Origin: Tepidiformaceae bacterium
GTDB lineage: Bacteria > Chloroflexota > Dehalococcoidia > Tepidiformales > Tepidiformaceae
Assembly (NCBI GenBank): GCA_958295975.1
Contig: OY282446.1
Location: 907,289-971,288, forward strand
Direction of reading: 5' to 3'
Length of the DNA stretch: 64,000 nt
The stretch's first letter is position 1, and every line of letters begins with the position of its first letter. A program made the translations under genes and the position numbers. Positions 36,235 to 60,747 of this stretch are shown here, one piece after another. The notes under the pieces were generated by a model that was not told where the DNA came from, ran no database searches, and saw only the letters and a program-made list of their open reading frames with translations.

Positions 36235-37197
36235 CTAGTCCAGCGCCTTGACGGCCTCGATCAGGGCCGGCACCACCTTCTTGTAGTCCTCCACCACCGC
36301 GAAGCGCGCCGCCCGCACCATGTTCGCGTCCGGGTCGCGGTTGATGGCCACGATGTTCTTCGAGCCGGCCATGCCCGCCATGTGCTGGCTCGCGCCGCTG
36401 ATGCCCACCGCCAGATAGAGCGCGGGCGTCACCGTCTTGCCCGTCAGCCCCACCTGCTGCGCGGGCGGATACCAGCCCAGGTCGCAGGCCGCGCGGCTCG
36501 CGCCCGTGGCCCCGCCCAGCAGCCCCGCCAGCTCCTCCAGCATGGCGAAGGCCGACGGATCGCCCAGCCCGCGCCCGCCCGACACCACCACCTCCGCGTC
36601 CTCCAGCCGCACGCCCTCCGCCTCCGCCGCCTCCGTGGCGATGACGCGCACGCGCTGTTCGGCGTCCGCCTCCACCGCCGACGTCTCCCCCTGGCGGGAG
36701 GCGTCCGGCTCGGCCGCGTCCCAGGCCTTCGCCTTCAGCGTGGCGATGCGCACGTCGCCGCGCCAGGACACCTCGGCGACGGCGTTGCCGCCGTAGCAGC
36801 TGCGCGTGGCGCGCGGGCGTCCGTCCGCCAGCGTCAGGGCCACGCAGTCCATGGCCGCGCCCGCGCGCAGGCGGAAGGCGAGCAGGGGGGCGAGGTCGCG
36901 CCCGAGGCTGGTCTGGCCCATGAGCACGGTGTCCGCCCCCGCGGCCTCGCGCGCGGCCAGCACGGCGGACGCCCCGCGCTCCGCGCAGCCCGGGTCGAGC
37001 GCGCCTTCGGGCGCGGCGTACACGTGCTCCGCGCCGTGCTCGATGAGCGTGCGCGCCAGCGCTTCGCCGCCCGCGACGACGGCGCTCACGGGTCCCGCGC
37101 CCTCCGCCGCCAGCGCGCTGGCCGCCGCCAGCAGCTCGAGGGAGACGGGGGCGACCTCCCCGCCGGAGGTCTCCGCGACGATCAGCGTTCCGGGCAT
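36235..37197 (-). CDS. etfA: Electron transfer flavoprotein, alpha subunit
   Basis: 320 residues. The N-domain begins [26 protein letters not shown]; the FAD-binding C-domain carries [11 protein letters not shown] (about 208-218), [27 protein letters not shown] and NRDPDANMV, all conserved FAD contacts. With EtfB it accepts electrons from acyl-CoA and related dehydrogenases and passes them to ETF:quinone oxidoreductase. The gene follows etfB after 18 bases, in the usual order, with its own ribosome-binding site (GGAGGAA). Confidence 0.95.
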
Positions 37198-38019: not shown

Positions 38020-38121
38020 GCGCGGGCGCTCCTTACGCTTCGGATGGCGCGGGGAGCGTAGCACGCCCCCGCCGCTCGCGGAATTTCCCCATGCCCGCAT
38101 TCCCATGTGAGAGTGTGTTTC

Positions 38122-38159
38122 GTAACCGGCCCGAAACGGCGCGGCAACACGCGGGAAAT
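38122..38159 (+). promoter_or_regulatory. GlnR-like nitrogen-control operator upstream of amt-glnK
   Basis: Four pentamers in the arrangement of actinobacterial GlnR boxes (gTnAc-N6-GaAAc twice): GTAAC at 38122, GAAAC at 38133, GCAAC at 38144 and GAAAT at 38155, each 11 bases apart. A TACCGT -10 box (38170-38175) follows, so the operator would overlap the -35 region as for an activator. Only two of 16 informative positions deviate. Confidence 0.6.
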
Positions 38160-38229
38160 CGCGCGCCCCTACCGTCCCGCCCAACGTTTCCCGCCCGCGG
38201 AGCGACCGCGGCGGTGCAAGGAGGATTGC

Positions 38230-39693
38230 ATGAAACGTGCCCTGGCGGCCCTGCGCAGGCCGACCGCCATGCTCGCTGGCGGCCTGCTCGCGCTTGGCAT
38301 CGTCTCCGCCGTCTCCGCCCAGGAGGCCGACCCGGCGGCGCTCGACGACATCATCGGCGCCGTCGATACCGCGTGGCTGCTCATCGCGGGCTTCCTCGTG
38401 TTCTTCATGCAGGCCGGTTTCGCCATGCTCACGGCGGGCTTCGTCCGCTCCCGCGAGACGGCCAACATCCTCATGAAGAACGTGATAGACGCCTGCGTCG
38501 GCGGCCTCTCGTTCTGGCTCGTGGGCTACGCCTTCGCCTATGGCGTGGGCGACGCCTCCAACCAGTTCATCGGCCTCGGCAACTTCGCCCTCAACCAGTT
38601 CGACGACTACGCGACCTGGTTCTTCCAGTTCGCCTTCGCCGCCGCCGCCGCCACCATCGTGGCGGGCGCCCTCGCCGGGCGCACGAGGTACTCCGCCTAC
38701 CTCATCTACACCGTCGTCATCACCGGCTTCATCTACCCCGTCGTGGTGCACTGGGGCTGGGACACGAACACGTGGATGGGGGCCTTCACCGACGGCGAGC
38801 CCTGGCTCGGCAACGGCTACGTCGACTTCGCCGGTTCCGGCATCGTCCACACCGTGGGCGGCATCGCCGGGCTCATGGGGGCCATCGCCGTGGGCGCGCG
38901 CCTCGGCAAGTACGGCCCTAACGGCGAGGTGCGGGCCATCCCCGGCCACAACATCTCCATCGCCACCATCGGCATGTTCATCCTCTGGTTCGGCTGGTAC
39001 GGGTTCAACCCGGGCTCCACGCTCGCCCTCTCCGGCGGCGGGGCCGCGCTGGCCGCCAGTGTGGCCGTCACCACCACCCTGGCGGCGGGGGCGGGCGGCG
39101 TCACCGCCATGCTCTGGTCGCGCTTCCGCACGGGCCGCTACGACGCCGGCCTCACCATCAACGGCATCCTCGCCGGGCTCGTGGCCATCACCGCGGGCAC
39201 GGCCACCGTCGACCCCTGGGCGGCGGTCGTCATCGGCGCCATCGGCGCGCTCGTCATGTACTACGGCGTGCAGATGCTGGACTCCGTCTTCCGCATCGAC
39301 GATCCCGTCGGCGCCGTCTCCGTGCACGCCTTCGCGGGCATCTGGGGCGTCATCGCCGTCGGCCTCTTCTCCTCGAAGGCCGGCATGGAGGCCGCGGGCT
39401 ACGTGAACCCCGGCAACTACGGCCTCTTCCTCGGCGGCGGCGGCGAACAGCTGCTCATGCAGCTCATCGGCATCGCGGCCATCGTCGCCTGGACGGCGGT
39501 CACGGCGGGCATCCTCTTCTTCGCCATCAAGGCCGTCATGGGCCTGCGCGTGAGCCAGCAGGAAGAGATGCGCGGGCTCGACCTCATCGAGCACGGCATC
39601 GACGCCTACCCCGACTTCGGGCCCTCGGGCTCCGGCATCTTCGGGGCGACCAGCCCGGTCGAGGTCGAGACGGAAAGGAGCTCCCGCTCGTGA
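38230..39693 (+). CDS. amt: Ammonium transporter, Amt/Rh family
   Basis: 487-residue Amt channel taking up ammonium. A cleavable leader (1-30, ending VSAQ) precedes 11 membrane helices. Family landmarks include FFMQAGFAMLTAGFVRSRE, NILMKNVIDACVGGLSFW, DFAGSGIVHTVGGIAGL with the first pore His, FILWFGWYGFNPGS and VSVHAFAGIWGVIAVGLF with the second pore His. AAGGAGG lies 5 bases before the ATG (38230). Its 3' end overlaps the GTG of glnK by 4 bases, the standard amtB-glnK pairing. Control by nitrogen status is suggested by the operator at 38122-38159. Confidence 0.96.
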   Translation: MKRALAALRRPTAMLAGGLLALGIVSAVSAQEADPAALDDIIGAVDTAWLLIAGFLVFFMQAGFAMLTAGFVRSRETANILMKNVIDACVGGLSFWLVGYAFAYGVGDASNQFIGLGNFALNQFDDYATWFFQFAFAAAAATIVAGALAGRTRYSAYLIYTVVITGFIYPVVVHWGWDTNTWMGAFTDGEPWLGNGYVDFAGSGIVHTVGGIAGLMGAIAVGARLGKYGPNGEVRAIPGHNISIATIGMFILWFGWYGFNPGSTLALSGGGAALAASVAVTTTLAAGAGGVTAMLWSRFRTGRYDAGLTINGILAGLVAITAGTATVDPWAAVVIGAIGALVMYYGVQMLDSVFRIDDPVGAVSVHAFAGIWGVIAVGLFSSKAGMEAAGYVNPGNYGLFLGGGGEQLLMQLIGIAAIVAWTAVTAGILFFAIKAVMGLRVSQQEEMRGLDLIEHGIDAYPDFGPSGSGIFGATSPVEVETERSSRS

Positions 39694-40031
39694 AGAAGAT
39701 CGAAGCCATCATCCGCCCCGGCCGCCTCGAGGCCGTCAAGGACGCGCTCGACGAGCTCGGCTTCTCCGGCGGCATCACCGTCTGGGAAGTGAAGGGCCAC
39801 GGCAAGCAGCGCGGCTTCACCGAACAGTGGCGCGGGCGCGAGTACCGCGTCGAGTACCTCTCCAAGGTCTGGATCGCCCTCGTCGTCTCCGACGACAGGG
39901 CCGAGGCCGTCATCGAGGCCGTCCTCCACCACGCCAGCTCCGGCGAAATCGGCGACGGCAAGATCTTCGTCTCCCCCGTGGAGGACGCCATCCGCGTCCG
40001 CACCCGCGAGCGCGGCGACGAGGCGCTCTAG
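39690..40031 (+). CDS. glnK: P-II nitrogen regulatory protein
   Basis: 113-residue P-II signal protein that binds ATP/ADP and 2-oxoglutarate and plugs the Amt trimer when nitrogen is plentiful. It has MKKIEAIIRPGRLEAVKDAL, GKQRG at the T-loop base and the T-loop Tyr in GREYRVEYLSK (Tyr 52, equivalent to the uridylylated/adenylylated Tyr 51), and the P-loop-like GEIGDGKIFV. The GTG start overlaps the amt stop (GTGA), so it is translationally coupled. A strong terminator follows at 40058. Confidence 0.96.
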   Translation: MKKIEAIIRPGRLEAVKDALDELGFSGGITVWEVKGHGKQRGFTEQWRGREYRVEYLSKVWIALVVSDDRAEAVIEAVLHHASSGEIGDGKIFVSPVEDAIRVRTRERGDEAL

Positions 40032-41035: not shown

Positions 41036-41112
41036 TGGTAGCGCGTGCGGGATTCGAACCCGCGATCTCCGCCTTGAAAGGGCGGCGTCCTGGGCCTCTA
41101 GACGAACGCGCC
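41036..41112 (-). tRNA. tRNA-Glu (TTC anticodon)
   Basis: 77 bases with encoded CCA. Acceptor GGCGCGT pairs with ACGCGCT (one G-U at the end), anticodon stem CCGCC/GGCGG with loop CTTTCAA reading TTC, and a normal GTTCGAATC T-arm. Confidence 0.97.
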
Positions 41113-41155: not shown

Positions 41156-41485
41156 TCAGGCGCGCGGGGCGCTCGACGACGCCGGGCGGAAGCGCGCGCG
41201 CGGGGCCAGCTCCTTCAGCAGCTCGTCGCGGTTGCGCGCCCGCGCCCACTCGCGCGCCTTCGCCAGCGCCCCCTCCAGCGCCTCCCCCTCCAGCACGTGC
41301 GCCGCGTCGTACGCGATGCAGTCCACCGGACAGACGGGCGCGCAGGCGTTGCAGTCGATGCACGCCTCCGGCCAGATGGCGTGCTGGAAATCGTCCGTGT
41401 CGAAGTAGTGGATGGTCTCCGTGGGGCAGACGCGGCGGCAGTAGCCGCAGTTGATGCACCGGGCGGCGTCGATGACGTAGGTCAC
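41156..41485 (-). CDS. Ferredoxin, 2[4Fe-4S], with C-terminal extension
   Basis: 109 residues. Two complete cluster motifs, CINCGYCRRVCP (about 10-21) and CIDCNACAPVCP (about 42-53), bind two [4Fe-4S] clusters; a 45-residue helical Ala/Arg/Glu-rich tail follows. The GTG start (41483-41485) overlaps the TGA of the upstream ferritin-like gene by 4 bases, so it is translationally coupled to it. In this position it is the likely electron donor for the diiron proteins encoded upstream in the operon. No reductase gene is adjacent. Confidence 0.9.
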   Translation of the reverse strand: MTYVIDAARCINCGYCRRVCPTETIHYFDTDDFQHAIWPEACIDCNACAPVCPVDCIAYDAAHVLEGEALEGALAKAREWARARNRDELLKELAPRARFRPASSSAPRA

Positions 41486-42111
41486 GCCCCGTCGTCGCCG
41501 CCGCGCGCGCCGATGACGCCGCCCGCGCGCGTGAGCAGCTCCTCCAGGTGCATGCGCCACTCGTTCACGCGGCGGCGCTTCGGGGGCGTGTCCGCCAGCT
41601 CCTCGATCTGCGCGCGCCCCCACTGGATGTGCTCCTCCTCGTCCTGCAGCGTGAGCCGCAGGATGCGCACCGTGGGCGCGTCCACCACCTGGTCGGTGGC
41701 GCGCAGGTGGTAGAGGTAGTGCGTGGCCAGATGGGGCTTGAGCACGCCGAAGATGCCGGTCACGCGCAGCACCGAATCGTCCTGGTCCTGGATGGCCTCC
41801 ATGAAGGCGCGGAAGTCGTCGTTGGGGGGCGCCATTTTGGGGGAGGTCATGAGCGGGTAGGGGCCTTCCGCGCCCTCCGTCACGCGCAGCTCCGGCAGCC
41901 GCTTGCCCAGCATGTCCGCGTGCTGCGCGCAGTGGTAGGCGATGGGCCCGAACTCCACCTTGTGGTGGACCTGCGGCTGCGTGGCGATCCACTGCAGCAG
42001 CGCGCGCATCATCTCCACCTCGGCGTAGCGGTAGTGCGTCAGCCGCCGCGCGCACTCGTCCACGGAGAACGCCCCGCCCAGTTTCCGCTGCGGAACCCAC
42101 AGTTCGACCAT
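41482..42111 (-). CDS. Ferritin-like helical protein, possible structural subunit of a diiron oxygenase
   Basis: 209 residues, mostly helical. One canonical diiron half-site is present (DEEEHIQWG, E-x-x-H, about 184-187) and an early Glu pair in RYAEVEMMR, but the second E-x-x-H is replaced by a His-rich segment (AYHCAQHADMLG), with further His in LKPHLATHYLYHL. It may therefore bind metal differently or serve as a structural partner of the 42403-43164 protein, as PaaC does for PaaA. GGGAGG is 6 bases before the ATG. It lies between an 82-residue Cys-rich gene and the ferredoxin gene to which it is translationally coupled. Confidence 0.65.
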   Translation of the reverse strand: MVELWVPQRKLGGAFSVDECARRLTHYRYAEVEMMRALLQWIATQPQVHHKVEFGPIAYHCAQHADMLGKRLPELRVTEGAEGPYPLMTSPKMAPPNDDFRAFMEAIQDQDDSVLRVTGIFGVLKPHLATHYLYHLRATDQVVDAPTVRILRLTLQDEEEHIQWGRAQIEELADTPPKRRRVNEWRMHLEELLTRAGGVIGARGGDDGA

Positions 42112-42141
42112 GCCCGCCTCCCGTTGCGGCCCGCGCGGGGC

Positions 42142-42390
42142 CTACTTCAGCTCTTCGCGGGGGGTGAAGTAGAGCGCCCCCGATTCGCACGGCCCGTGGC
42201 GCGTCCAGCCCTCGCCCACGGCGATGGCGGCGGCCACCTCCTCCTCCGTCTCCCACATCGTGATGCGCTCGTCCTCGATGGTGGAGACGGCGCACTCCGG
42301 CTTCTCGCAGACGAGGTCGTGGATGACCATGCCGCGCGAGTCGCCGCAATAGCGCCTGAAGTTGAAGGGGGGCCGCCAGCGCTTCGCCAT
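42142..42390 (-). CDS. Small Cys-containing protein of the diiron operon
   Basis: 82 residues, no family recognised. It has four cysteines, two spaced as CEKPEC, one in YCGDS and one in PCESG, an acidic helical centre (ETEEEVAAAIAVGEG) and aromatic N-terminus. GGGGGA precedes the ATG. It lies between the two ferritin-like genes, 12 bases after the first, in the position occupied by the small bridging subunit PaaB in phenylacetyl-CoA epoxidase operons, although it is not visibly PaaB-like. A small metal-binding or bridging subunit is the working idea. Confidence 0.6.
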   Translation of the reverse strand: MAKRWRPPFNFRRYCGDSRGMVIHDLVCEKPECAVSTIEDERITMWETEEEVAAAIAVGEGWTRHGPCESGALYFTPREELK

Positions 42391-42402
42391 CGGTCCGTCC
42401 CC

Positions 42403-43164
42403 CTAGAGCGCGAACTCCCGCGGCGCGGCCACCTCGTCGCCCGTGTTGAGCGCCATGATCAGCTCCTCGAAGGCCTGCTGCGCCTTCATCGCCTCGCGCC
42501 GCCGGGCGTCGTTCCCCTCCGTGAGGCGCGGCACCCAGTAGTTGCCCACCTCCACGTGCATCACCTCGTCGGCGTGGTTGAAGTCGAAGGCGCGCTCCCA
42601 GTCGGGGTCGCCGATGTTGCGGCCCATGTCGATGAGCGCCGTGAACAGGTTCATGGCCAGCCCCTCGCCGCCGCGGTGCACGGAGGCCATGCTGTTGATC
42701 ATGTCCAGCGAGGCCCCCGGGCGCGCCTCGCCGCTGGCGGAGGCGCTCGAGCTGGTCAGGCTCTCGCCCGCCACGTAGCCGTCCGCGAAATCGCCCAGCG
42801 TGCAGCCGTGCCGCCCCATCTGCTCCAGCACGATCTCGGTGTGGCGGCACTCGTCCCAGGTGAGGCGCGCGTTCACCAGCGCCAGCTCCCAGGGCAGCTC
42901 GTCCACGCCCTCGCGCGTGGCCTGCACGTAGCGCCGCCCGAAGGCCTCCGAGCCCCCGATCTCGCCGCCGTACATCGAATGCAGCAGCACCTTCACGGGC
43001 AGCTTCTCCGGATCGCGCAGCAGGATGGAGGGCATGTCGATGCCCTGCTCGCGCCAGTTCGGGCGCTCGCTCACGGGCAGGTAGCGGTGCGGCGGATCGC
43101 GCCGGATCTCGTCCGGCGACGGATCCCGGTAGAAGGGACGGTCGGTCGTGGCTTCGGCGGTCAT
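42403..43164 (-). CDS. Ferritin-like diiron protein, probable catalytic oxygenase subunit
   Basis: 253 residues. The four-helix diiron site looks complete: Glu in GGEIGGSEAFG (about 68-73), E-x-x-H in TWDECRHTEI (about 105-108), Glu in HRGGEGLAMNLF and E-x-x-H in NHADEVMHVEVGNYW (about 198-201). The insertion around residues 133-152 (Ser/Ala/Gly-rich) is probably a loop. The arrangement matches carboxylate-bridged diiron oxygenases/oxidases rather than iron-storage ferritins. First gene of a four-gene operon (diiron - small - ferritin-like - ferredoxin). The ATG at 43162-43164 follows GGGAG. The substrate is unknown. Confidence 0.7.
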   Translation of the reverse strand: MTAEATTDRPFYRDPSPDEIRRDPPHRYLPVSERPNWREQGIDMPSILLRDPEKLPVKVLLHSMYGGEIGGSEAFGRRYVQATREGVDELPWELALVNARLTWDECRHTEIVLEQMGRHGCTLGDFADGYVAGESLTSSSASASGEARPGASLDMINSMASVHRGGEGLAMNLFTALIDMGRNIGDPDWERAFDFNHADEVMHVEVGNYWVPRLTEGNDARRREAMKAQQAFEELIMALNTGDEVAAPREFAL

Positions 43165-43227: not shown

Positions 43228-43770
43228 TCAGCCCCCGTCCGCCTCCTCGCGCAGGCGGTAGACCAGATCGCTGCGGTCCCCCCGCGCCACCTGCGTGAAG
43301 GCCGCCGCCATGGCCGCCCCCTCGCCCACCGGGTCGATGCGGCTCCAGGAGTGGACCACCGTGCGCCGCAGGATCAGCCAGGGGCCGTCCCCGCGCTTCT
43401 CGAACACGTCCACGTAGCGCCCGCCCCAGGTGAAATCGCGCGCCGGGCCGTCCCCGTCCGCGGGCATGCGGTGATAGGCCACGTGGTACGTCTCCGAATG
43501 CGCGCGGTCCCCCTCCAGCTCGATGAGCGAGTTGCCCAGGAAATGCTGCGTGCACTCCATGCGCGAAAGCCCCGTCATCACGTGCTCGGCGAACTCGTGC
43601 GCGTTCCCCTTGAAGGTCCCGTGGTCGTCGTAGGCGTCGGGGTGGTAGGCCGACTTCACCAGCTCCGGGTCGAGCAGGTCGATGCCGCGCGAGTAGCGCA
43701 TGAGCGCGTCGCGGATCTCCTGTTTGGCGATCAGGGCGTCGATGGCGGCCTCGCGGTCGCTCGTGGTCAT
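43228..43770 (-). CDS. SnoaL/NTF2-like protein
   Basis: 180-residue NTF2-fold protein of the SnoaL_4/DUF4440-like type: IRDALMRYSRGIDLLDPELVKSAYHPDA is the classical helix-turn with the conserved Tyr/Asp, and the later GRYVDVFEKRGDGPWLI strand pair closes the cone. Many members are isomerases, dehydratases or hydroxylase components in aromatic or steroid pathways, which fits a position 63 bases upstream of the diiron operon on the same strand. AAGGAGG lies 6 bases before the ATG. Catalytic role not provable from sequence. Confidence 0.82.
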   Translation of the reverse strand: MTTSDREAAIDALIAKQEIRDALMRYSRGIDLLDPELVKSAYHPDAYDDHGTFKGNAHEFAEHVMTGLSRMECTQHFLGNSLIELEGDRAHSETYHVAYHRMPADGDGPARDFTWGGRYVDVFEKRGDGPWLILRRTVVHSWSRIDPVGEGAAMAAAFTQVARGDRSDLVYRLREEADGG

Positions 43771-43837: not shown

Positions 43838-45721
43838 ATGACCCGAACGCTCTGGATCGCCGCCGTGCTGCTGGCTCCGACGCTCCTGCTGGCCGCCTGC
43901 ATCACCGGGGCCGCCCCCGCGCCCTCGCCGTGGGCCTTCACGCAGCTGGCGGTCGGCGAGGATCACGTCTGCGGCCTCAGGGCGGATGGCACGGCCGTCT
44001 GCTGGGGCCGCAACGACGAAGGCCAGCTGGACGTCCCCGAGGGCATGCGCTTCCGGCAGCTGACGGCGGGCCGCCACTTCTCCTGCGGCCTGCGCCTTGA
44101 GGGCACGCTGGCCTGCTGGGGGCGCGACGCGGCGGACTGGCTGGGCGGCGAATCGGGAACCTGGGCGATGGTGAGCGCCGGGAGCGACCAGCTCTGCGCG
44201 CTCGACGCGGAAGGCGCCGCCGCCTGCTGGGGATCGATCGACCCGCCGCCGGAGGGGCCCCGCTACACCGTCATCGGCGTGGGCGGCGGCCGGGGCTGGG
44301 GCTGCGGCCTCACCTTCAACGGCGAGCTGGACTGCTGGGGGAGTAATGACCGCAGCCAGGCCATATGGCGGGATGGACCGTTCACGGCGCTGTCGGTCGG
44401 TTTCCAGCACCTGTGCGCCCTGCGCCCCGACGGCTCGGCCTTCTGCCAGGGAATCGACTACTACGGCCAGCTCCTTCCTCCCCCCGACGCGTCCTTCACG
44501 CAGGTCACGGCCGGGAGCGAACACTCCTGCGGGCTCACCGCCGCGGGGCGCCCGGTCTGCTGGAGCGGCGAGGATACCTCGCCGGACGGACCGTTCACGG
44601 CGCTGTTCTCCGGCTGGAGACGCACCTGCGGGCTGAGGCCGGGCGGCGAGACCGCCTGCTGGGAGATAATCGGGCGTCCCCCGCGCCTGCAGGTCGCACC
44701 CGCCCCGGCCTTCGAGGGCAAAACGTTCGACCAGCCCGTCGAACTCTTCCCCTGGCCGGGCGGCGGGCTGGCGATCACGGAGCGCCGCGGCGCCATCACC
44801 GTCCACGCCCCCGGAACGCCGCCGCGCCTCGTCCTCGATCTGACCGCTCGCACCAGCCTCGACGGCGAGCAGGGCCTGCTCAGCGCGGCGCTTGATCCGG
44901 AATTCGACGCATTCCCCTACCTCTATGTCTGGTACAACACACAGCCCGGGGACGGGTCGGAAGTGACGGTTCGGCTCTCCCGCATTCCCGTCGCCGATGG
45001 CGTCGCAATCCCCGACAGGGAGCTGCGCATCCTGGAATTGCCGCAGCTGACCGCATTTCACTCGGGAGGGGCGATTCGCTTCGGCCCCGACGGGATGCTC
45101 TACCTGGGCATCGGAGACGACTTCCGGAGCCATGATGCGCCCGATCCGGAGAGCCTCCGCGGCAAGATCATCCGCATCGACGTGCGCGGCGCCACGGCGG
45201 AGGCCCCGTATCGGGTACCGGACGACAACCCGCTGCTCGCCACGCCGAAGGCCCGCCCCGAAATCTGGGCCTTCGGCCTGCGCAACCCTTGGCGCATGAA
45301 CTTCGATGCGGAGGGAAGGCTGTGGGTCGCGGACGTTGGCCACGGCCACGAGGAAGAAGTTTCCCTCGTGACGCCGGGCGCGAACCTGGGCTGGCCTCTC
45401 CTCGAGGGCGCCAGATGTCGCGGTGAGCAGCGCGCGTGCGACGCGCTCGGCGCCACGCCCCCGGTGGCGACCTACGGCCGCGATCTGGGCTGCGCAATCA
45501 TCGGCGGCGTGCACGCTCCCCCGAACGGCGGGTACCTCTTCGGCGATTTCTGCAGCGGGCGCATCTGGAGGCTGGAGGAGGGCGGGGAAACGGGCTGGTC
45601 GATGCGGGAGATCGCGCGCGTGGACCGTCGCCTGCTCGCCTTTGGACACGGCGCGGAGGGCGAGGTGTACCTGCTGACCGTCGGCGGTCCCATCCTCAGG
45701 CTGGAGCTGCCGTCCCCGTAG
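43838..45721 (+). CDS. Lipoprotein with RCC1-like repeats fused to PQQ-type sugar dehydrogenase domain (paralogue C)
   Basis: 627-residue paralogue of the proteins at 29070 and 55842: lipobox LLAAC (Cys about 22), RCC1-type blades to about residue 285, then the GSDH propeller (LLSAALDPEFD, GGAIRFGPDGMLYLGIGD, LRNPWRMNFD). It is the most divergent copy in the RCC1 part and lacks the VVPMPEGV insert. TATCAT (43815-43820) and GGAGGGGG precede the ATG at 43838; a 3-codon ORF (ATG CCC GCA TGA) at 43830 overlaps the start and could affect initiation. Residues about 465-560 are nearly identical at DNA level to copy B, pointing to gene conversion. Confidence 0.82.
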   Translation: MTRTLWIAAVLLAPTLLLAACITGAAPAPSPWAFTQLAVGEDHVCGLRADGTAVCWGRNDEGQLDVPEGMRFRQLTAGRHFSCGLRLEGTLACWGRDAADWLGGESGTWAMVSAGSDQLCALDAEGAAACWGSIDPPPEGPRYTVIGVGGGRGWGCGLTFNGELDCWGSNDRSQAIWRDGPFTALSVGFQHLCALRPDGSAFCQGIDYYGQLLPPPDASFTQVTAGSEHSCGLTAAGRPVCWSGEDTSPDGPFTALFSGWRRTCGLRPGGETACWEIIGRPPRLQVAPAPAFEGKTFDQPVELFPWPGGGLAITERRGAITVHAPGTPPRLVLDLTARTSLDGEQGLLSAALDPEFDAFPYLYVWYNTQPGDGSEVTVRLSRIPVADGVAIPDRELRILELPQLTAFHSGGAIRFGPDGMLYLGIGDDFRSHDAPDPESLRGKIIRIDVRGATAEAPYRVPDDNPLLATPKARPEIWAFGLRNPWRMNFDAEGRLWVADVGHGHEEEVSLVTPGANLGWPLLEGARCRGEQRACDALGATPPVATYGRDLGCAIIGGVHAPPNGGYLFGDFCSGRIWRLEEGGETGWSMREIARVDRRLLAFGHGAEGEVYLLTVGGPILRLELPSP

Positions 45722-53714: not shown

Positions 53715-55496
53715 CTACGGGGCCAGCGCGCGCGTCTCCCGCTCCCGCCCGACGCGCGCGAGGAAGTTGGCCAGCGGCATCGCCCCCAGGTCCTCGCCCG
53801 TGCGCACGCGCACCGACACCGTGCCCGCCTCCGCCTCGCGGTCGCCCGCCACCAGCATGTAGGGCACCTTCTGCAGCTGCGCGGCGCGGATCTTGGCGTT
53901 CATGCGCTCCGCGCGCGCGTCCACCTCCACGCGGAATCCGGCCTCGCGCAGCGTCGTCGCCGCCGCTTCGGCGTAGGGCGCGTGGCGGTCGGCGATGGGG
54001 ACGATCACCGCCTGCACGGGCGCCAGCCAGAGCGGGAAGGCCCCCCCGAAATGCTCGATCAGCACCCCCAGGAAGCGCTCCGTGGAGCCCGTCACGGCGC
54101 GGTGCAGCAGCACCGGCGTATGCTCGCGCCCGTCCTCCCCCGTGTACGCGCAGCCCATGCGCCCGGGCCCGATGAAGTCCACCTGGATGGTCGAGAGCTG
54201 CCACTCCCGCCCCAGCACGTCCTTCGTGATGAAGTCCGCCTTGGGGCCGTAGAAGGCGGCCTCGCCCTCCTCCTCCGCGTACGCCAGCCCCGACGCCTCC
54301 ATGGCCGCGCGCAGGGCCGCCACCGCCCGTTCCCAGCGCTCCGGGTCGTCCACGAACTTGCCCCCGCCGCCCGCGTCCGGCAGCGAGAGGGCCACGCGGT
54401 ACTCCGTGAAGCCGTAGGTCTCCAGCGCTTCCCGCACGAGCGCCAGCGCGCGCGCGAACTCGTCCCCGATCTGCTCCGGCGCGCAGAACACGTGCGCGTC
54501 GTCCTGCGTCAGCGCGCGCACGCGCGTGAGCCCGCTCAGCTCGCCCGACTTCTCGTAGCGGTAGAGCGTGGCGAACTCGGCGTAGCGCAGCGGCAGCTCG
54601 CGGTAGCTGTGCTGCTCCGCGTTGAACAGCGCCATGTGCGAGGGGCAGTTCATCGGCTTCAGGTAGAGCTCCGTCTCGCCGTCCCGCATGGGCGGGAACA
54701 TGGCGCTCGCGTAGTGCTCCTTGTGCCCCGACCGCTCGAAGAGCGCGCCCTTCACCAGATGCGCCGTCCACACGTGTTGGTAGCCCGCCCGCTCCTGCAG
54801 CTCGCGCACGTAGCTCTCCATCAGGTGGCGCACCGTCTCCCCCTTCGGCAGGAAGAGGGGGATGCCCGGCCCCACGTCGTCGGAGAAGGCGAAGAGGCCC
54901 AGCTCGCGGCCCACGCGGCGGTGGTCGCGTTTGCGCGCCTCCTCCAGCCGTCGCTCGTGCTCCTCCAGCTCCTCGCGCGTCTCGAAGAGCGCCCCGTAGA
55001 CCCGCTGCAGCTGGGGATTGGCCTCGTCGCCGCGCCAGTAGGCCCCGGCGATGCTCATCAGCTTGAAGGCCGGGATCTCGCCCGTGTGGTTCACGTGCCC
55101 GCCGCGGCAGAGGTCCGTGAACCCGCCGTGCGTGCACTGCGTGATGGCACCGTCCTCCAGCCCCGCCAGCAGGTCGAGCTTGAAGGGCTGATCGCGCCAG
55201 CGTTCCTCCGCCTCCGCCCGCGTGATCGCCTCCATGCGGAAGGGGAGCCGCCGCCCGATCGACTTCCGCATGCGCCGCCGCAGCCAGGCCAGGTCCTCCT
55301 GCGTGAGCGGGCGCGGCAGGCGGAAATCGTAGTAGAAGCCGGTGTCCGTGGGCGGCCCGATGCCGAGCTCGGCCTCCGGCATCAGCTCCAGCATGGCCTC
55401 GGCCAGCACGTGCGCGGCGGAGTGGCGCATGCGCGCGAGCCGCTCCCCGCGCGGCAGGGCCTCCAGCTCGACGCGCTCCTCGATCGGTTCGGGCAT
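53715..55496 (-). CDS. thrS: Threonyl-tRNA synthetase lacking the N-terminal TGS domain
   Basis: 593-residue class II synthetase. The editing (HxxxH) domain is present: MRHSAAHVLAEAM (about 24) and CTHGGFTDLCRGGH (about 148). The catalytic core has motif 2 region FATLYRYEKSGELSGLTRVR, zinc ligands Cys in MNCPSHM (about 285) with His in TQDDAHVFC, and motif 3 TERFLGVLIEHFGG; the anticodon domain ends the protein. The 60-residue TGS domain of the E. coli enzyme (642 residues) is missing. The ATG at 55496 follows a T-box leader (55497-55754), so synthesis should rise when uncharged tRNA-Thr accumulates. Confidence 0.96.
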   Translation of the reverse strand: MPEPIEERVELEALPRGERLARMRHSAAHVLAEAMLELMPEAELGIGPPTDTGFYYDFRLPRPLTQEDLAWLRRRMRKSIGRRLPFRMEAITRAEAEERWRDQPFKLDLLAGLEDGAITQCTHGGFTDLCRGGHVNHTGEIPAFKLMSIAGAYWRGDEANPQLQRVYGALFETREELEEHERRLEEARKRDHRRVGRELGLFAFSDDVGPGIPLFLPKGETVRHLMESYVRELQERAGYQHVWTAHLVKGALFERSGHKEHYASAMFPPMRDGETELYLKPMNCPSHMALFNAEQHSYRELPLRYAEFATLYRYEKSGELSGLTRVRALTQDDAHVFCAPEQIGDEFARALALVREALETYGFTEYRVALSLPDAGGGGKFVDDPERWERAVAALRAAMEASGLAYAEEEGEAAFYGPKADFITKDVLGREWQLSTIQVDFIGPGRMGCAYTGEDGREHTPVLLHRAVTGSTERFLGVLIEHFGGAFPLWLAPVQAVIVPIADRHAPYAEAAATTLREAGFRVEVDARAERMNAKIRAAQLQKVPYMLVAGDREAEAGTVSVRVRTGEDLGAMPLANFLARVGRERETRALAP

Positions 55497-55754
55497 GGGC
55501 GGAATCCCCCTCGGCGTACTCGCGCTCCTCGGGGACGGCGCGCGGCCCGTGGTTCCACCCCGATTCCCCGCGCGGCGAACGCGCGGGCTCCTTCGCGGCC
55601 GCTAACGGGGCCGACCGCGCGCCCTTATCGCGAGGCTTCGGGCGCGGGCTCGCGGGTGGTGTTCGCCGCCGGACGCCGCGCTCGCAGCCGTGGCGCGGCT
55701 CTCTGGGGCTGGCGGCTACTCGTCCCGGTCGTCGCCGATCACTCTGCAACTGTC
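55497..55754 (-). promoter_or_regulatory. T-box riboswitch leader of thrS
   Basis: On the minus strand a T-box sequence GGTGGAACCACGG lies at 55547-55559, followed by a sequence that can pair back (CCGTCCCC), the usual antiterminator/antisequestrator element. Upstream are T-box stem I features: a GACGAGUAG-like segment and AGAGAG (about 55698-55720), and a likely specifier loop with ACC (threonine codon) at about 55655-55660. A TATGCT -10 box (55761-55766) gives a leader of about 255 bases. No T-rich terminator is visible, so translational control is likely. Confidence 0.75.
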
Positions 55755-55828
55755 CCTCCGAGCATAGCCGCCGCGTCCGCGCCGGTCGAGCGCCCCCACG
55801 CCATGGCAGGCCCCGGCCCGGCCGCGCG

Positions 55829-55834
55829 TATGAT
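55829..55834 (+). promoter_or_regulatory. -10 box of the RCC1/GSDH gene, copy B
   Basis: TATGAT, 7 bases before ATG 55842 and including the alternative ATG at 55830, as in copy A. Confidence 0.5.
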
Positions 55835-55841
55835 CGGCGGG

Positions 55842-57752
55842 ATGCGGCTGTTGAACCGAACGCCCTGGATCGCCCTGGCGCTGGCTCCGACGCTTCTGCT
55901 GGCCGCCTGCATCACCGGCGCCGCGCCCGCGCCCTCGCCCGTGGTCCCCATGCCGGAGGGCGTGGTCTTCACGCAGCTGGCGGTCGGCGAGCATCACGTC
56001 TGCGGCCTCGAGGCGGATGGCGTGGCCGTCTGCTGGGGCCGCAACGATGAAGGCCAGCTGGACGTCCCCGATGGCATGCGCTTCCGGCAGCTGACGGCGG
56101 GCCGCTACTTCTCCTGCGGCCTGCGCCTTGAGGGCACGCTGGCCTGTTGGGGGCGCGCCGCGGCGGACTGGCCGGTCGGCGAATCGGGAACCTGGGCGAT
56201 GGTGAGCGCCAGGGGCTACGCGCTCTGTGCGCTGGACGCCGATGGCGCCGCCGCCTGCTGGGGATCGATCGCCCCACCGCCGGAGGGCCCGCGGTACACC
56301 GTCATCGGCGTGGGCCGCAACTACGGCTGCGGCCTCACCTTCGCAGGCGATCTGGAGTGTTGGGGGAACAACGACCACGGCCAGGCCGACTGGCGGGATG
56401 GGCCGTTCACGGCATTGTCGGTCGGCTGGTTGCATCTGTGCGCCCTGCGCTCCGATGGCTCAGCCTTCTGCCAAGGGAACAACTACTACGGCCAGACCCA
56501 ACCGCCCGACGCGTCCTTCGCACAGGTCGTCACCGCGCGGGAATACTCCTGCGGGCTCACTGACGAGGGCGCGCTGGTCTGCTGGGGCAGGAAGGGATCC
56601 CCGCCAGCCGGACCGTTCACGGCGCTCTCTTCCGGCCGGTATCGCATCTGCGGGTTGCGCTCCGGCGGCGACGCCGTGTGCTGGGAGATGACCGGGGGGA
56701 GGGGCCAGCCCCTGACTCTGAATCTCTCGCCGGCGCAAGCCCTCGAGGGCAGGTCGTTCGACCAGCCCGTCGAACTCTTCCCCTGGCCGGGCGGCGGGCT
56801 GGCGGTCGCGGAACGCCGCGGCGCCATCGCCGTCCACGCCCCCGGAACGCCGCCGCGCCTCGTCCTCGATCTGACCGCTCGCACCGCCGCCGGCGGCGAG
56901 CGGGGCCTGCTTAGCGCCGCGCTCGATCCGGAATTCGACGCATTCCCCTACCTCTACGTCTGGTACAGCGCACTGACTGGAGACGGGTCCGATGCGACGG
57001 CCCGGCTCTCCCGCTTTTCCGTCGTCGATGGCCGCGTGATCGGGGGGGGGGAGGAGCTGATCATCCTGGAACTCCGCCAGTCATCCCGGATACACCAGGG
57101 AGGGGCGATTCGCTTCGCCCCCGACGGGATGCTCTACCTGGGGATTGGCGATAATGGTCTGGGGCGGAATGCGCAGAACCTGCAAAGCCTGCGAGGCGCG
57201 ATCATCCGCATCGACGTGCGCGGGGCTTCGGCGGAGCGACCGTATCGGGTACCGGACGACAACCCGCTGCTCGCGATGCCGGAGGCCCGCCCCGAAATCT
57301 GGGCCTTCGGCCTGCGCAACCCCTGGCGCATGAACTTCGACGCGGAGGGAAGGCTGTGGGTCGCGGACGTTGGCCACGGCCAGGAGGAAGAAGTTTCCCT
57401 CGTGACGGCGGGCGCGAACCTGGGCTGGCCTCTCCTCGAGGGCGCCTACTGTCGCGGCGAGCAGCGCGCGTGCGACGCGCTCGGCGCCACGCCCCCGGTG
57501 GCGACCTACGGCCGCGATCTGGGCTGCGCAATCATCGGCGGCGTGGGCTCTCCCCCGAACGGCGCGTACCTCTTCGGCGACTACTGTAGCGGGCGCATCT
57601 GGAGGCTGGAGGAGGACGGCGCGTCGGGCTGGTCGATGCGGGAGATCGCGCGCGCGGACCGTCAGATTCTCGGCTTCGGGCGTGGCGCCGGCGGAGAGGT
57701 GTACGTACTCACCGCCGGCGGCCCCATCCTCAGGCTGGAGCTGCCCCCGTAG
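55842..57752 (+). CDS. Lipoprotein with RCC1-like repeats fused to PQQ-type sugar dehydrogenase domain (copy B)
   Basis: 636 residues, closest to copy A (29070-30974) in the signal peptide, the VVPMPEGVVFTQLAVG start, the RCC1 blades and the C-terminal 45 residues. In the GSDH part from about LRNPWRMNFD to GRDLGCAIIGG it instead follows paralogue C (43838-45721), sharing for example EGAYCRGEQRACDALGATPP-type sequence where copy A has an unrelated Cys-containing loop. It is therefore a mosaic. A run of nine G (around 57040) inside the gene is a likely site for frameshifts but the frame is intact. Divergent from thrS; leaderless start. Confidence 0.82.
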   Translation: MRLLNRTPWIALALAPTLLLAACITGAAPAPSPVVPMPEGVVFTQLAVGEHHVCGLEADGVAVCWGRNDEGQLDVPDGMRFRQLTAGRYFSCGLRLEGTLACWGRAAADWPVGESGTWAMVSARGYALCALDADGAAACWGSIAPPPEGPRYTVIGVGRNYGCGLTFAGDLECWGNNDHGQADWRDGPFTALSVGWLHLCALRSDGSAFCQGNNYYGQTQPPDASFAQVVTAREYSCGLTDEGALVCWGRKGSPPAGPFTALSSGRYRICGLRSGGDAVCWEMTGGRGQPLTLNLSPAQALEGRSFDQPVELFPWPGGGLAVAERRGAIAVHAPGTPPRLVLDLTARTAAGGERGLLSAALDPEFDAFPYLYVWYSALTGDGSDATARLSRFSVVDGRVIGGGEELIILELRQSSRIHQGGAIRFAPDGMLYLGIGDNGLGRNAQNLQSLRGAIIRIDVRGASAERPYRVPDDNPLLAMPEARPEIWAFGLRNPWRMNFDAEGRLWVADVGHGQEEEVSLVTAGANLGWPLLEGAYCRGEQRACDALGATPPVATYGRDLGCAIIGGVGSPPNGAYLFGDYCSGRIWRLEEDGASGWSMREIARADRQILGFGRGAGGEVYVLTAGGPILRLELPP

Positions 57753-60649: not shown

Positions 60650-60744
60650 GGGAGTGGATAGGGTCCGGTGGTCCTCGCCGTCTTCAAAACGGTCGCCTCG
60701 TCGCCAGCGCGGCGAGGGGTGGGTTCGACTCCCATGCACTCCCG
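60650..60744 (+). tRNA. selC: Selenocysteine tRNA (TCA anticodon)
   Basis: 95 bases without CCA. Long acceptor GGGAGTGG/GCACTCCC (one mismatch at pair 8), 6-bp D stem with a 4-base CGGT loop, anticodon loop CTTCAAA reading TCA, a 9-bp variable arm (CCTCGTCGC/GCGGCGAGG) and a GTTCGACT T-arm. These are the features that separate tRNA-Sec from tRNA-Ser. TAGGAT (60635-60640) is its likely -10 box. Confidence 0.95.
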
Positions 60745-60747
60745 CCG

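Follow-up and report, generated by a model that had tools for sequence, protein, structure and literature searches.

A compact minus-strand gene cluster in a Dehalococcoidia genome probably encodes a soluble, two-subunit diiron oxygenase fed by a ferredoxin, parallel to but distinct from the PaaABCE and BoxAB systems. More tentatively, we propose that it may represent a lineage of its own among heteromeric diiron oxygenases of the ferritin-like superfamily, in which the pairing of a catalytic subunit with a pseudo-subunit would have arisen separately from the pairings of PaaAC and the bacterial multicomponent monooxygenases. Enzymes of this putative lineage would be fed directly by a co-encoded 2[4Fe-4S] ferredoxin and would occur as split subunits in Dehalococcoidia and as one fused chain in other Chloroflexota and in Armatimonadota. 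The cluster lies in a stretch of 64,000 nucleotides (hereafter the window) that is part of a 2.4-Mb single-contig genome of the Dehalococcoidia (Chloroflexota), and its features are listed in Table 1.

Table 1. Coordinates within the window of the cluster genes and the adjoining tRNA gene.
Feature	Position	Strand	Basis
Catalytic diiron subunit (alpha), 253 aa	42403..43164	-	ORF; Pfam DUF455; ligands E68, E105, H108, E167, E200, H203
82-aa Cys protein, candidate zinc-binding accessory	42142..42390	-	ORF; C15, C28, C33, H/C65, C68 in alignment
Site-deficient ferritin-fold partner (beta), 209 aa	41482..42111	-	ORF; AlphaFold2 model; fold matches; ligand loss
2[4Fe-4S] ferredoxin, 109 aa, GTG start	41156..41485	-	Translation; Fer4 matches; eight invariant cluster cysteines
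SnoaL_4 protein, heading the cluster in the genus	43228..43770	-	Pfam SnoaL_4, 76.5 bits
tRNA-Glu, directly downstream of the cluster	41036..41112	-	ARAGORN

Read in the direction of transcription, the order is SnoaL_4, diiron protein, 82-aa Cys protein, ferritin-like partner and ferredoxin. The four ORFs between 43164 and 41156 are all present where the first-pass annotation had placed them. Its "4- to 30-base gaps" were right in the upper figure; the true gaps are 12 bases between the diiron and Cys protein genes and 30 bases between those of the Cys protein and the partner, and the figure of 4 is the GTGA shared by the GTG start of the ferredoxin and the TGA stop of the partner. Homologues of the cluster genes in genus-mates are approximately 75-92% identical with pN/pS values of about 0.13-0.41, and relative to these genus-mates the genes are under purifying selection. 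Together with the conserved neighbourhood, these values establish the genes as real, far beyond chance.

In the 253-aa protein the residues E68, E105-x-x-H108, E167 and E200-x-x-H203 supply the ligands of a classical diiron site in the order E / ExxH / E / ExxH, a set that had been recognized as complete from the outset. All six ligands are invariant in an alignment of 18 diverse split homologues with identities down to 25-30%, and the set is retained in nearly all of 16 relatives in which the catalytic protein is fused to its partner. We infer that this subunit binds a carboxylate-bridged diiron centre, presumably occupied by iron and capable of activating O2. Its match to Pfam DUF455 (PF04305) is marginal (34.9 bits against a gathering cut-off of 34.3); a paralogue in the genus (copy B) scores 42.2, and in relatives from other families and in the C-terminal domain of the fused proteins DUF455 is below the cut-off or undetected. 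The ferritin-like fold of the catalytic subunit is assigned from this Pfam match together with the model of the fused protein. No function for DUF455 appears in the literature searched, which for papers naming the family comprised titles and abstract openings, and within that scope the initial concern that both ferritin-like proteins might fall in a known family of unrelated function did not materialize. A MiaE-like hydroxylase acting on RNA or another macromolecule would be compatible with a DUF455 protein, the ferritin-like superfamily being known to include diiron hydroxylases that modify RNA; given the absence of any match to MiaE or another named family in Pfam and NCBIfam, the small-molecule metabolic genes nearby and the patchy distribution, such an enzyme strikes us as extremely improbable.

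Most of the genus carries the catalytic gene duplicated side by side, copy A being approximately 87-90% and copy B 71-74% identical to the window protein. The window possesses only an A-like copy and locus L010 only a B-like one, and loci L002-L008 carry both copies along with two ferredoxins, of each of which the window has one. The second ferredoxin of the genus-mates lies just downstream of the cluster, in the place taken by tRNA-Glu in the window, and a search for a separate second ferredoxin in the window genome found none, the best match being the cluster's own ferredoxin. The two catalytic paralogues may differ in substrate.

No family in Pfam or NCBIfam matches the 209-aa partner, for which AlphaFold2 predicts a ferritin-like bundle (pLDDT 89.8, pTM 0.85). 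Neither the partner nor the fused model has a Foldseek match with E below 0.001, and the comparisons use Foldseek prob and TM values together with VIA-align Z scores: the partner's top Foldseek match is the T4moH beta subunit (3dhg_B, TMq 0.73, rmsd 3.6), and the further best matches are PaaC (3pvy_B, 1otk_A), the uncharacterised ferritin-like protein 3ez0 and ADO. At the level of fold, the presence of both T4moH beta and PaaC among these matches agrees with the epoxidase-like layout that had been proposed. VIA-align returned Z values of 16-18 against ADO, R2lox, 3ez0 and T4moH beta, with VlmB-type structures also among the best matches; the scores are level to within about 1-2 Z units and reveal the fold, not the function.

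What the partner retains of the diiron ligands is E31, the Glu of helix 1, and on helix 4 an acidic motif, DEEEH, the His of which is Q or M in many relatives. Both the helix-2 E-x-x-H and the helix-3 Glu are gone, and helix 3 has the His-rich segment KPHLATHYLYH instead; the first-pass annotation had noticed the His-rich replacement, but had underestimated the degeneration in describing a single lost E-x-x-H. Because its metal site is incomplete, the partner is best seen as a structural pseudo-subunit, predicted to share the general fold of the catalytic subunit without a complete metal site. Direct homology of the two proteins is undetectable (hhalign 5.5%), and a PDB profile search with the split partner and catalytic profiles found no solved relatives of either by sequence.

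The same structural matches bear on the chemistry, for a ferredoxin-dependent diiron enzyme of identical architecture could also be a desaturase, an N-oxygenase, an oxidative decarboxylase or an enzyme of the aldehyde-deformylating type. Besides T4moH beta, the partner's best VIA-align matches are indeed ADO, R2lox and VlmB-type structures, and ADO is ferredoxin-dependent. However, fold similarity says nothing on chemistry, and to our knowledge the solved ADO, R2lox and VlmB-type enzymes act without a site-deficient partner, a pseudo-subunit being typical of T4moH-like hydroxylases and PaaAC. We therefore regard a different chemistry as unlikely and favour an oxygenase, a description that is probable rather than proven, since diiron sites housed in ferritin folds are equally found in oxidases, desaturases, N-oxygenases, deformylases and peroxidases.

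Natural fusions join the two ferritin-like proteins outside the Dehalococcoidia. There, in further Chloroflexota lineages as well as in Armatimonadota, a single chain of approximately 420-566 aa carries the partner in its N-terminal and the catalytic protein in its C-terminal part; the fused form is also found in an Armatimonadetes MAG (L011), and 25 of 201 genomes of the phylum of that MAG contain a total of 26 near-full-length fused matches. In the fused protein of locus L043, residues 41-229 correspond to the partner (hhalign 100%) and residues 280-429 to the catalytic subunit (99.5%), and the genome that encodes it (G350) also holds a split set (L047). Structure prediction gives the fused chain as a single, confidently modelled unit (pLDDT 86, pTM 0.85). 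These fusions are the strongest evidence that both window proteins act as one enzyme, and strongly suggest that partner and catalytic subunit belong to a single functional unit, which in the window's organism would be a heterodimer.

Against the PDB, the fused profile has bacterioferritin as its closest match (E 2e-6) and also finds aldehyde decarbonylase, both at superfamily level only; Phenol_Hydrox (PF02332) reaches about 12 bits on the fused relatives against a cut-off of 24.4. The bacterioferritin match could be taken to favour an iron or redox-stress protein pair, that is a ferroxidase or a rubrerythrin-like peroxide scavenger, and a diiron site of the peroxidase type could receive its electrons from a ferredoxin. 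Yet a heteromer of catalytic and site-deficient subunits, catabolic neighbours and lineage-specific accessory genes fit poorly with such a role, and a rubredoxin domain is absent, so that we give this explanation very little credence.

In all 27 split loci examined, each of them from Dehalococcoidia, the genes for the catalytic subunit, the ferredoxin and the partner lie side by side in one orientation. These loci (the window, L002-L010, L044-L047 and L085-L097) came from homology searches with the partner or the catalytic subunit, and some come from one genus or lie on truncated contigs, so that they do not amount to 27 independent events. Gene order varies: diiron protein, Cys protein, partner, ferredoxin in the window's genus and in L009, and diiron protein, ferredoxin, partner in several other families of the class. 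In a tree of the partner all split loci fall on one side of a branch (support 95/80). Recurrence of all four genes elsewhere had been named at the first pass as a check; the three-gene core recurs elsewhere in the Dehalococcoidia, and the full four in the genus and L009. The idea that a diiron subunit, a site-deficient ferritin-fold partner and a dedicated ferredoxin form one set is thus supported, by linkage in every split locus examined and by fusion of partner and catalytic protein elsewhere.

The 109-aa product of the fourth gene is a 2[4Fe-4S] ferredoxin, as originally annotated: it possesses two CxxCxxCxxxCP motifs and Fer4 matches, all eight cysteines are invariant in an alignment of 14 homologues, and a flavin domain is absent. 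Its conserved linkage points to the ferredoxin as the electron source for the diiron centre. None of the fused loci read had an adjoining ferredoxin, which shows that a neighbouring ferredoxin gene is not obligatory for the family.

The 82-aa Cys protein is more restricted. It is limited to the window's genus and L009, the remaining Dehalococcoidia with the core lacking it, and in the partner tree the loci possessing it form one group (100/98). Its conserved residues are C15, C28, C33 and C68, and position 65 is His or Cys; the resulting CX4C ... [H/C]XXC pattern suggests a zinc site, which the His/Cys exchange would fit better than a rubredoxin-type iron. The protein is therefore probably a lineage-specific zinc-binding accessory, as judged from its residue pattern and distribution. 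No match was found in Pfam (E<=1) or NCBIfam, nor any meaningful match in PDB profile searches, and its identification as PaaB or a rubredoxin was rejected. The proposal that it is a PaaB-like bridge did not survive these searches, in which no PaaB structure was matched, or its absence from most carriers of the core. All 8 homologues weakly match the phage family phrog_28292 (best E 8e-7, otherwise approximately 1e-6 to 1e-5), a family without assigned function that also has matches in Methanosarcina acetivorans. Searches for the 82-aa protein in phages and plasmids (tblastn) and a scan of viral contigs returned nothing, and among 400 Chloroflexota genomes phrog_28292 was found in none besides carriers of the 82-aa protein.

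The metabolic genes around the core differ between lineages. SnoaL occupies the same position in L002-L008 and L010, and is absent from L009 and from the loci of other families; its profile finds nothing in the PDB at E<=0.01. In those other families a luciferase-like monooxygenase adjoins the core in 9 of 17 loci, and some of these loci also carry SDRs, an acyl-CoA dehydrogenase or a P450, while ORFs of L009 read, judged by their sequence, as class III CoA-transferases. Such neighbours point to catabolic oxidation of organic compounds without naming the substrate. Near the core in four loci (L086, L088, L091 and L046), a conserved protein of approximately 108 aa that has no Pfam match (L091:5781-6110) stands beside a luciferase-like monooxygenase. 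Electron-transfer flavoprotein genes lie at 36235 to about 38000 (minus strand) of the window, approximately 3 kb from the cluster, and ETF beta/alpha-like ORFs are present upstream of the fused gene at L043 3827-5628 and were not seen in L003.

As a working model, electrons would pass from a putative reductase to the 2[4Fe-4S] ferredoxin and on to the diiron centre of the 253-aa subunit, where O2 would be activated. An organic substrate, bound in a pocket that the partner helps to support, would then receive an oxygen atom. The luciferase-like monooxygenases, SDRs, acyl-CoA dehydrogenase, CoA-transferase-like ORFs and P450 nearby suggest that the substrates probably belong to the catabolism of recalcitrant or acyl-CoA-type compounds. 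In the window's genus, SnoaL may process the product; an action of this kind had been suggested before and is possible, but with co-occurrence confined to the genus it is weakly supported.

The cluster occurs in sponge-associated and other Chloroflexota. For Dehalococcoidia, the SAR202 clade and sponge symbionts among them, oxidation of recalcitrant organic matter has been proposed, and the published models feature oxidative and flavin-dependent enzyme families that have expanded (PMC5395668, PMC6946804). If our reading is true, the cluster would add a widespread oxidising enzyme that as yet has no name, comes with a ferredoxin of its own and is often encoded beside a luciferase-like monooxygenase. 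The natural fusions offer a ready single-gene expression construct, and make the role of a pseudo-subunit in diiron enzymes directly testable.

Elsewhere in the window, a tRNA-SeC (anticodon tca) is predicted at 60650-60746 (plus strand), and the genome also carries a SelA gene (C1:212083-213153), from which it probably makes selenoproteins. Two closely similar lipoprotein-like ORFs lie approximately 12 kb apart, at 43838-45721 (plus strand) and in the 3' part of the ORF at 53982-57752 (plus strand). Both contain ITGAAPAPSP...VCWGRNDEGQLDVP and RCC1-like repeats followed by a sugar-dehydrogenase-like part, and they likely arose by recent duplication. At 38107-40031 (plus strand) an ammonium-transporter-like ORF has a P-II gene immediately after it, the two making up an ordinary nitrogen-uptake pair.

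Among known diiron systems, the cluster can be compared with PaaABCE (PF05138). PaaAC couples a catalytic diiron subunit to a structural one that shares its fold, and the PaaA ligands are E42, E72, H75, D126, E155 and H158 (PMC4498308). The window cluster likewise has an E/ExxH/acid/ExxH subunit, a predicted structural subunit of the same fold and an iron-sulphur donor, although its helix-3 ligand is Glu where that of PaaA is Asp, and although many of its relatives have the two subunits fused. Instead of PaaE, a flavin/2Fe-2S reductase, it has a 2[4Fe-4S] ferredoxin, and a PaaB-type bridging subunit is lacking. PaaA and PaaC recognise each other by profile, whereas the window pair does not (99.9% versus 5.5%).

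Were the cluster a new offshoot of the phenylacetyl-CoA-type epoxidases, in which the 82-aa protein stood for PaaB, this would explain the matching layout of catalytic subunit, small protein, pseudo-subunit and iron-sulphur donor, as well as the rank of PaaC among the partner's Foldseek matches. Membership is nonetheless largely refuted and we consider it very improbable: PF05138 has no match in the window genome, the 82-aa protein is missing from most relatives, the cluster has no PaaE-type reductase, and hhalign gave 2.3% for PaaA against the catalytic subunit and 0.2% for PaaC against the partner. The PaaA and PaaC profiles were built from 6 and 3 sequences, and low probabilities from so few do not prove an absence of kinship; however, the control with the same profiles, PaaA against PaaC, worked. 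A value of 39.7% for the fused profile against PaaA is compatible with superfamily kinship only. Assignment of the pair to PaaA/PaaC was accordingly rejected, and sequence kinship with the Paa epoxidase beyond the superfamily fold was not supported.

With T4moH the cluster shares a predicted non-catalytic ferritin-fold subunit, the beta subunit being the one that tops the partner's Foldseek matches. The soluble diiron monooxygenases differ in that no gamma subunit or effector is recognised in the window cluster; Phenol_Hydrox (PF02332) has no match on window proteins, and among the extra small proteins (the 82-aa Cys protein and SnoaL) no MmoB/TmoD-like effector was found by Pfam family. ADO and R2lox have the same helical bundle as the partner, yet they are metal enzymes without a pseudo-subunit and the partner lacks the ligand set. 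DUF455 resembles the cluster through the marginal pass of the catalytic subunit, a pass that relatives in other families do not share. BoxAB is a diiron oxygenase as well, and BoxA carries ferredoxin-type 4Fe-4S domains; against the BoxA equivalog the window ferredoxin scores 27.1 bits, below the cut-off of 459.2. For BoxB, NCBIfam gave no match to the diiron protein and the PDB profile searches no BoxB chain. BoxB needs no structural subunit (PMC4498308), whereas the window catalytic subunit has a predicted structural partner, and in being one chain BoxB resembles the fused relatives of the cluster.
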